Shown here one piece after another: positions 22,697-23,541 of a stretch of 64,000 nucleotides of DNA (position 1 is its first letter; each line of letters begins with the position of its first letter). Position numbers and translations under genes: made by a program. Below the pieces are notes generated by a model. The model did no database searches. It was not told the origin of the DNA and worked only from the letters and a program-made list of their open reading frames with translations. The stretch is from assembly GCF_025685425.1 (NCBI RefSeq), contig NZ_JAGTAS010000057.1, positions 1-64,000 on the forward strand, read 5' to 3'. This DNA is from Terriglobus albidus (GTDB taxonomy: Bacteria > Acidobacteriota > Terriglobia > Terriglobales > Acidobacteriaceae).

Positions 22697-23248
22697 TTAA
22701 ACGGAAATGTTCTGATTACGACAGGTACAGTCTATACAGCCATGCTCGGAGCAGACGCCACAGGTTTTGGTCAACTGCTTCCGCAGCGATGCCCTTGCCC
22801 GATGAGCTCTTACTGCGGCATTCCCTGCCGAGATTCCCTGTTCGGCGGCGAACTGTTGCAATGGCTGTTCTTCCAGATCAACCGATTTCAGCAGGCCAGC
22901 GTAATTCGCTGGGAGCTCGTCCAGTACTTTCGTGAGGCAGGCGCAGATCTCATTGCGGAGTTCTGGAGCGGGAACCACCTCGTTTTCCATCTCCTTCCCC
23001 CAAGCCGAAAGCGCCTTGTTCTCCGTCGTTTTACGACGGTATTGATCAATGACGGCATTGCGGAGGATCCGGTAAAACCATGCCACTACGGACTCTTCGT
23101 CCCGCGGTGTCCCCTCCGACTTCAGAGCCCGCAGATAGGCGCCCTGAAGCAGGTCCTCAGCAAGCGCCTGATCCTGGACGCGGCGGCGCACAAAGCCCAG
23201 AAACTGCTGTCTATGCAACAAAAGCGTATTCAGATTTGTCTCGGTCAT
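22697..23248 (-). CDS. ECF sigma factor with cysteine-rich C-terminal tail
   Basis: The protein has 183 residues from the ATG at 23248; the longer frame begins upstream without a ribosome site. Region 2 is residues about 10-75 (EDLLQGAYLRAL, VAWFYRILRNAVIDQYRR). Region 4 is about 105-155 (LPANYAGLLKSVDLEEQPLQ, then a helix-turn-helix). The tail carries Cys163, Cys166, Cys171, Cys174 and Cys176. In CorE-type (ECF44) sigma factors, a C-terminal Cys-rich domain senses metal ions directly instead of an anti-sigma factor. I infer a similar mode here. A tiny cysteine-rich peptide gene lies 53 bases upstream on the same strand. Confidence 0.9.
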   Translation of the reverse strand: MTETNLNTLLLHRQQFLGFVRRRVQDQALAEDLLQGAYLRALKSEGTPRDEESVVAWFYRILRNAVIDQYRRKTTENKALSAWGKEMENEVVPAPELRNEICACLTKVLDELPANYAGLLKSVDLEEQPLQQFAAEQGISAGNAAVRAHRARASLRKQLTKTCGVCSEHGCIDCTCRNQNISV

Positions 23249-23301
23249 CACAAATATTGGATTTAGGACCGCGGAGGAAGGAACCACTCCGCGGTTCGGT
23301 T

Positions 23302-23379
23302 TTAACGACGGCCGACGCAGTTACAAATCGGGCAGGTACAGGTGCTTCCGCAGGGGCAATTGTCACATTTCAGACGCAT
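23302..23379 (-). CDS. 25-residue cysteine-rich, metallothionein-like peptide
   Basis: The small frame reads from an ATG at 23377-23379, preceded at six bases by GGAAAGGAGAG, one of the strongest ribosome sites in the window. It encodes 25 residues with seven cysteines at positions 5, 8, 10, 14, 16, 19 and 21, spaced as CxxCxC, CxC and CxC, and ends in two arginines. The density of Cys is that of a metal-binding peptide. It is the first gene before the Cys-tailed sigma factor and probably shares its transcript. The function is inferred from composition only. Confidence 0.75.
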   Translation of the reverse strand: MRLKCDNCPCGSTCTCPICNCVGRR

Positions 23380-23541
23380 TGGGCTCTCCTTTCCTTCGGG
23401 GCTTATCCCGGTATCTACCGGTAAAGACGCAGAGGAGCATTACCTATTACACTTCGCCGCCAAGTTACCGATGACACTTCTTCGCTAACTGGCCGAAAAA
23501 CGATGCGTCGAATCTCGTACACTGCTCTTTAAGTTAAACAG

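Follow-up and report, generated by a model that had tools for sequence, protein, structure and literature searches.

A CorE-like ECF sigma factor gene behind a candidate mini-metallothionein gene in Terriglobus albidus: a probable copper circuit and its predicted promoter

In the 64,000-nucleotide stretch of Terriglobus albidus DNA analysed here (contig NZ_JAGTAS010000057.1, positions 1 to 64,000; hereafter the window), a Cys-rich open reading frame of 25 codons, of a size that gene finders may easily pass over, lies just ahead of the gene of an ECF sigma factor. Is such a short frame a gene and, if so, what could its product do next to a sigma factor? The frame extends from 23302 to 23379 on the minus strand, starts with ATG and encodes MRLKCDNCPCGSTCTCPICNCVGRR, in which 7 of the 25 residues are Cys, spaced C-x2-C-x-C-x3-C-x-C-x2-C-x-C, with neither His nor aromatic residues. 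Metallothioneins are small Cys-rich proteins with CxC and CxxC motifs and few or no aromatic residues, and the window peptide, with its 25 residues, 7 Cys, three CxC and two CxxC, has features of this type. The sigma gene follows on the same strand after a gap of 53 nt. The preliminary description of this locus was exact in its coordinates and in its counts of Cys (7 of 25 in the peptide and 5 in the last 22 residues of the sigma factor), and the ribosome site that it claimed is indeed present, as a Shine-Dalgarno sequence, AAAGGAG, at 23386..23392 (minus strand), 6 nt 5' of the ATG.

ORFs of 15-60 aa with at least 7 Cys and at least 20% Cys number two in the window; the second one (MEPSCCCSCC...) overlies a 184-aa ORF of the opposite strand and is unrelated to the first. 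Since 40 Markov resamples of the window contained 3 comparably Cys-rich ORFs in total, and since the window itself holds this second one, the composition alone is only moderately surprising. The window peptide had no match in a search of the Pfam and NCBIfam profiles. Among 10 related peptides, two gave one weak metallothionein match each in Pfam, below cut-off, and none matched NCBIfam. When the PDB was searched with the window peptide, the top match was a cyclotide with a non-significant E value of 5.2. The sole metallothionein among the weak PDB matches was 2kak (EC protein), a wheat protein that binds zinc, with E 0.21 for the 47-aa peptide of a relative and 9.8 for the window peptide.

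The gene behind the peptide (22697..23248, minus strand) encodes a protein of 183 aa from its ATG. It has the architecture of an ECF sigma factor, sigma2 and sigma4 only: Pfam gave Sigma70_r2 with E 4.8e-13 and Sigma70_r4_2 with E 3.3e-5, the latter at 23.9 bits for a cut-off of 25.7. Its best NCBIfam match was SigZ (TIGR02959) and, the score of 109.3 bits standing under the cut-off of 168.65, membership of SigZ was rejected. In the excerpts consulted of PMC8999054, CorE-like factors are defined by a Cys-rich domain together with a CxC in the linker. Both hallmarks are present in the window protein. The linker CxC (C102 and C104, codons at 22937..22945, minus strand) and the C-terminal domain C163-x2-C166-x4-C171-x2-C174-x-C176 (22721..22762, minus strand) are invariant among 58 aligned sigma factors, and the final 22 residues, TCGVCSEHGCIDCTCRNQNISV, contain 5 Cys. 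The C-terminal Cys of CorE itself are C181, C184, C189, C192, C194 and C206, with C189 the main residue for activation and C206 of minor weight (excerpts of PMC3107203). Five Cys of the window protein align with those of CorE at a constant offset of 18, the equivalent of C189 being present. By this spacing and by the linker CxC, the CorE-like nature proposed beforehand for the sigma factor is upheld. The tail pattern recurs in 79 of 80 loci from named genomes (best 80 of 346), L101 being without it. In the AlphaFold model of the sigma factor the Cys-rich domain has a pLDDT below 50, so that the model is silent on a contact between the CxC and the tail. The immediate flanks of the locus encode a VWA-domain protein and an S55 peptidase, neither of which is an anti-sigma factor.

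Conservation of the pair was examined in 101 genomes (the source genome and 100 relatives), with the sigma factor as query and E 1e-45 or lower as a close match. Such a match was found in 18 genomes, and the best locus per genome has the Cys-rich tail in 18/18. The genus of the window was represented by 19 genomes, 11 with the sigma gene and 8 without it. Loss of the peptide frame where the sigma gene stays had been named in advance as the observation that would speak against the proposal; we found the frame kept in all 11 sigma-bearing genomes of the genus, each time with the promoter motif described below, and we detected a peptide in 15 of the 18 sigma-bearing genomes overall. In 10 of the 11 the peptide gene is directly upstream of the sigma gene on the same strand. 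The exception is G007 (L190), in which promoter and peptide are kept and a 377-codon open frame stands between peptide and sigma gene; by reading, this frame resembles a glycosyltransferase. In G041, G034 and G095 the peptides are divergent and longer, 42-47 aa with 10-14 Cys, and the peptide gene of G051 is unlinked, ~130 kb from the sigma gene. No peptide was detected with the sigma gene in G033, G056 and G086, of which G056 and G086 were covered for 16-17 kb around it. The 8 genomes of the genus without the sigma gene gave no credible peptide match (best E 0.06) and no promoter-plus-Shine-Dalgarno pattern. This absence is weak evidence because both searches missed true peptides: the peptide search overlooked those of G001 and G007 and scored that of G006 at just E 4.2, and the pattern overlooked those of G006 and G008.

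The gene of the window peptide differs from those of three near relatives by 3-4 synonymous substitutions in ~15.5 sites and 1-3 non-synonymous ones in ~59.5 sites; among these three relatives we counted 0-1 synonymous versus 1-3 non-synonymous substitutions, numbers too small to tell. Deeper pairs have a pS of 0.47-0.64 and a pN of 0.22-0.30. Of 28 short peptides tabulated, 13 have the exact Cys spacing of the window peptide, distant species included, 17 have the core C-x-C-x3-C-x-C-x2-C-x-C, and 19 lack both His and aromatic residues.

We also scanned named genomes, in which 418 stretches matched and 346 encode a relative. The best 80 of these 346 loci were analysed; they are mostly from Acidobacteriota, frequencies in other phyla being outside their scope. 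A Cys-rich ORF (at least 7 Cys and at least 20% Cys) is located at most 400 nt upstream of the sigma gene in 32 of these 80 loci, versus 3 of 2284 equally sized control tiles taken from these loci, and one of the three positive tiles itself sits behind the promoter motif. Laxer cut-offs gave 35/80 versus 8 control tiles and 37/80 versus 15. The peptide is beyond chance since it is conserved upstream of related sigma genes when compared with these tiles, and that of the window is very probably encoded by a genuine gene.

When distances of up to 5 kb from the sigma gene are taken in, 38 of the best 80 of 346 loci have a Cys-rich peptide, encoded on the same strand in 21, divergently in 14 and downstream in 3. 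Terracidiphilus gabretensis, Acidicapsa dinghuensis and Granulicella aggregans are examples of named species in which sigma gene and peptide occur together. A P-type ATPase with a CPC motif is encoded in 30 of the 80 fetched stretches; none of these stretches has both and 12 have neither. The exclusivity gives a Fisher p of 2e-12 with relatedness ignored, on labels assigned by hand and on stretches some of which are short (from 3.4 kb). A quick tree of 81 sigma factors needs no more than 3 changes between the peptide-type and the ATPase-type states, so the split is a clade pattern and not 80 independent cases. The named genome SZAS-4 contains one sigma factor of each type (L054 and L081). As to the assignments, L101, which has a Cys-rich ORF, no motif and an incomplete Cys-rich tail, was counted as lacking a metallothionein; the same-strand ORF of L082 (47 aa, 8 Cys) was judged fortuitous and excluded from the 29 same-strand peptides considered below; and for L067, L070 and L129 the ORFs used differ in start or frame from the automatic choice behind the motif.

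Ten neighbours of related loci were searched against Pfam. One is a copper-type ATPase with YHS and HMBD and one a multicopper oxidase with a CusF domain; the eight others are a cytochrome c, a decarboxylase, an FtsX/MacB protein, a HAD hydrolase, a methyltransferase, a trypsin-like protein and two proteins unmatched by Pfam. Of two plasmid records with distant relatives of the sigma factor, one is annotated with a copper-translocating ATPase and the other has no copper gene. An Orn/Lys/Arg decarboxylase is encoded 3' of the sigma gene in L073 (by Pfam) and in L076, L090, L100 and L129 (by clustering). The CorE-like sigma factor of L110, recorded as Comamonas sp. KCTC 72670, groups with Myxococcaceae in the tree, suggesting that the assembly is mislabelled or mixed or that the gene was transferred. 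The divergent 12-Cys peptide of L088 (Nitrospira sp. UBC2) resembles that of L125 (Bryobacterales) and their sigma factors are sisters, which hints at transfer between phyla or at a binning error.

Upstream of the peptide gene we recognised a predicted ECF promoter, TGTAA-N17-CGT, at 23427..23451 on the minus strand (-35 at 23451-23447, -10 at 23429-23427). The motif stands upstream of 28 of 29 same-strand peptides (that of the window and 28 others, near-copies included), with N17 in 27 cases and N18 in one, L101 being the miss. The distance from CGT to ATG is 38-49 nt in 27 of the 28 and 62 nt in L129, in which an ATG 19 nt further 5' suits better. Over the best 80 of 346 loci, a spacer of 17 was observed at 93 sites, versus 0-9 sites for each of the spacers 12-16 and 18-22. 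In related loci the motif also faces the longer, divergent Cys-rich peptides, and it stands ahead of P-type ATPases and of HMA-domain-like and cupredoxin-like proteins, mostly named by reading. Not every one of these sites has a clear gene behind it, and the divergent motifs of L083, L098 and L128 point to other genes. Two small Cys-containing ORFs behind the motif, one of 55 aa with 5 Cys and GGCC/CCC at +544 in L093 (G086), left out of the metallothionein counts, and one of 60 aa with an HMBD-like stretch at -2706 in L112, are perhaps additional copper carriers. CorE promoters of M. xanthus, as reported in the excerpts of PMC3107203, have AAC in the -35 element and a conserved G 16-18 nt downstream; set against this description alone, the architecture of our motif fits and the letters of the -35 element differ.

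The 5' leader of the peptide gene (23393..23426, minus strand), which adjoins the Shine-Dalgarno sequence, carries, in many relatives, a hairpin whose sequence varies: of 28 leaders, related to one another, 16 beat 95% of composition shuffles. The hairpin of the window's own leader is non-significant in this comparison (0.12). In L009, L010 and L011 the Shine-Dalgarno sequence itself may pair in the hairpin. Further upstream on the minus strand we observed a direct repeat, GAAGTGTCATCGGTAAC at 23480-23464 and GAAGTGTAATAGGTAAT at 23455-23439, the second copy of which contains the -35 element of the peptide promoter; when upstream regions were compared, the window and the three relatives closest to it showed the pair, which may mark the site of a second regulator.

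Which other genes could share this promoter? The pattern STGTAAK-N16-CGTY (spacer 17) has 11 sites in the 6.1 Mb source genome versus 22 for a reversed-pattern control. By count there was no enrichment of the motif in this genome, nor in 61 genomes when combined with AAGGAG (12 matches versus 20), nor in G051 (7 sites versus 25), so that the case for a regulon rests on the genes behind the sites. Two of the 11 source-genome sites are followed by a Shine-Dalgarno sequence and, at 46-52 nt, by a convincing gene start: that of the peptide and that of a P-type ATPase with YHS, two HMBD stretches and CPC, which is unlinked to the peptide operon. The ATPase site falls inside an open frame extending 5' of the assumed start of the ATPase, and it is a promoter only if this start is correct. 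At a third site (L141) the ORF behind, of 100 aa and at 29 nt, overlies an open frame of the opposite strand, and this site was not counted.

Relatives of this ATPase occur in 38 genomes, 30 of which yielded a locus, and the motif was searched for within ~800 nt upstream. It was found at 6 of 8 loci from sigma-bearing genomes versus 0 of 22 from the others. Near relatives make up 4 of the 6, and among the 22 some loci end early at a contig border and some come from incomplete genomes. The motif was not found ahead of the ATPase in G017 and G034. In G006 the ATPase adjoins the second CorE-like sigma factor of that genome. Of the 12 matches for motif plus AAGGAG in the 61 genomes, 10 are promoters of Cys-rich peptides, and it was this blind scan that revealed the previously unseen peptide of G007. 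In the G034 match the AAGGAG falls inside the peptide gene, and the matches in G083 and G066 look fortuitous. The sites in G051, in which the peptide is absent beside the sigma gene, include a peptide of 22 aa with 7 Cys and, by reading, an apparent ATPase with a YHS domain.

The conservation of the peptide, of the Cys pattern of the sigma factor and of the motif, the co-orientation of the two genes and the motif ahead of an ATPase are observed. On these sequence data we consider it likely that the locus is an autoregulated copper circuit of the CorE type, whose first product would be a mini-metallothionein. In such a circuit, the sigma factor would sense cytoplasmic copper by means of its linker CxC and C-terminal Cys-rich domain and would direct RNA polymerase to TGTAA-N17-CGT promoters. 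It would thereby transcribe its own operon, i.e. the 25-residue peptide and the sigma gene itself, and the unlinked copper-type P-type ATPase. With its 7 Cys and lack of His, the peptide would bind Cu(I) as a thiolate cluster and buffer free copper, the ATPase would export copper, and the fall in free copper, aided by the peptide, would switch the sigma factor off. The preliminary description had proposed a compact metal-sensing operon with the peptide as a metal buffer. The operon, the CorE-like sigma type and, by inference, the buffering role are supported; promoter, ATPase, longer divergent peptides and unlinked copies had no place in that proposal.

A CorE2-type sensor paired with a Zn/Cd metallothionein would give the same circuit for zinc or cadmium, and the zinc-binding 2kak is among the weak PDB matches (E 0.21, and 9.8 for the window peptide). 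CorE2, which belongs to the same family, responds to Cd and Zn, and the choice of metal tracks the Cys layout (excerpts of PMC8999054); therefore copper is not assured. The motif nevertheless stands ahead of ATPases with CPC, YHS and HMBD, CPC ATPases accompany 30 of the best 80 of 346 loci and a multicopper oxidase with a CusF domain one of them, the sigma factor has the equivalent of CorE C189, and 19 of the 28 short peptides are without His or aromatic residues, so that zinc or cadmium is a minor possibility. It is also improbable that the peptide acts on the sigma factor directly, as a metal donor to its Cys-rich domain or as an inhibitor of it by thiol exchange, although the two are co-oriented behind one promoter and the window peptide and the sigma tail have C-x2-C-x-C in common. 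No such peptide is named in the excerpts of the CorE work (PMC3107203), and several Cys layouts of the peptide are found alongside one sigma type, which a metal sink fits better than a docking partner. The two flanking genes, described above, lend no support to donation to the sigma factor or to a regulatory partner, which the preliminary description had also offered, as a requirement.

A short, Cys-rich frame 53 nt ahead of a sigma start, with hairpins in many 5' leaders, recalls a leader peptide whose Cys codons would control the downstream sigma gene in cis. Attenuation of this kind was tried and rejected, as it is contradicted by peptide copies that are divergent from the sigma gene (14 of the best 80 of 346 loci), separated from it by the 377-codon frame of G007 or unlinked at ~130 kb in G051; moreover the hairpins lie 5' of the peptide and not 3', and we judge a leader peptide very improbable. 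Finally, the ORF might be fortuitous and untranslated, for ORFs of similar composition arise at a low chance rate (3 in 40 resamples of the window) and few substitutions were counted. The same Cys spacing in 13 of 28 short peptides and the core in 17, in distant species, the Shine-Dalgarno sequence and promoter motif at fixed distances and the blind recovery of peptides in G007 and G051 leave next to no room for this.

We lean slightly towards a wider reading, in which CorE-type sigma factors serve two modules through one promoter code, a copper ATPase or a mini-metallothionein, the buffer slot being open to several layouts and the arrangement recurring through Acidobacteriota. The peptides in the metallothionein slot have 22-53 aa and 6-15 Cys in several Cys layouts, perhaps of separate origin, and few bacterial metallothioneins may be shorter. 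Taken furthest, this two-module reading would make the peptide an off-switch stripping copper from the Cys-rich tail of the sigma factor. CorE-like sigma factors are metal sensors that work without an anti-sigma factor, and the promoter code could make genomes that carry them readable as copper regulons. It exposes metallothionein-like genes of 22-53 residues which, for those tested, have no Pfam or NCBIfam model. Bacterial copper metallothioneins may seem rare only for being too short and too varied for homology searches to pick up, and yet they can be found by their promoter.

Both the sigma type and copper metallothioneins are already known; their pairing, the promoter-defined regulon and these peptides appear to be undescribed, no account of a metallothionein tied to a CorE-like sigma factor having been found among the matches listed from openly licensed PMC papers. 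The copper metallothionein of Neurospora is of similar size class to the window peptide: it is a fungal protein of ~25 residues with 7 Cys, whose Cys spacing differs from that of the window peptide. SmtA is larger than the window peptide. The SmtA-type metallothioneins are, like our candidate, of a small, Cys-rich, metal-binding type, and SmtA has a zinc-finger fold (excerpts of PMC7558416). MymT of Mycobacterium tuberculosis, in the RicR regulon, is likewise a small, once unannotated Cys-rich ORF of a copper regulon (excerpts of PMC7558416 and PMC10141476). According to these descriptions, on which the likeness is drawn, MymT has 4.9 kDa and is under a CsoR-type repressor, whereas the window peptide has 25 aa and is tied to an ECF sigma factor.

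As stated in the parts consulted of a 2021 review (PMC8103513), only CorE and CorE2 have been studied experimentally in their group. The excerpts of the 2011 CorE paper count four Acidobacteria among 21 such factors, with copper genes near several (PMC3107203). A survey of marine bacteria assigns the general ECF model TIGR02937 to CorE in the excerpts consulted (PMC10141476) and, this model being general, its counts of CorE probably are those of ECF sigma factors at large. With CorE of Myxococcus xanthus (formerly ECF44, now near ECF238) the window sigma factor shares the linker CxC, the Cys-rich domain, the spacing of five Cys, a copper ATPase in the regulon, here predicted, and the absence of an adjacent anti-sigma gene; the sixth C-terminal Cys of CorE, C206, is absent from it. 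The targets named for CorE in the excerpts available are a multicopper oxidase, P1B ATPases and a few linked genes, with no metallothionein. The predicted first target of the window sigma factor is a mini-metallothionein encoded in its own operon.
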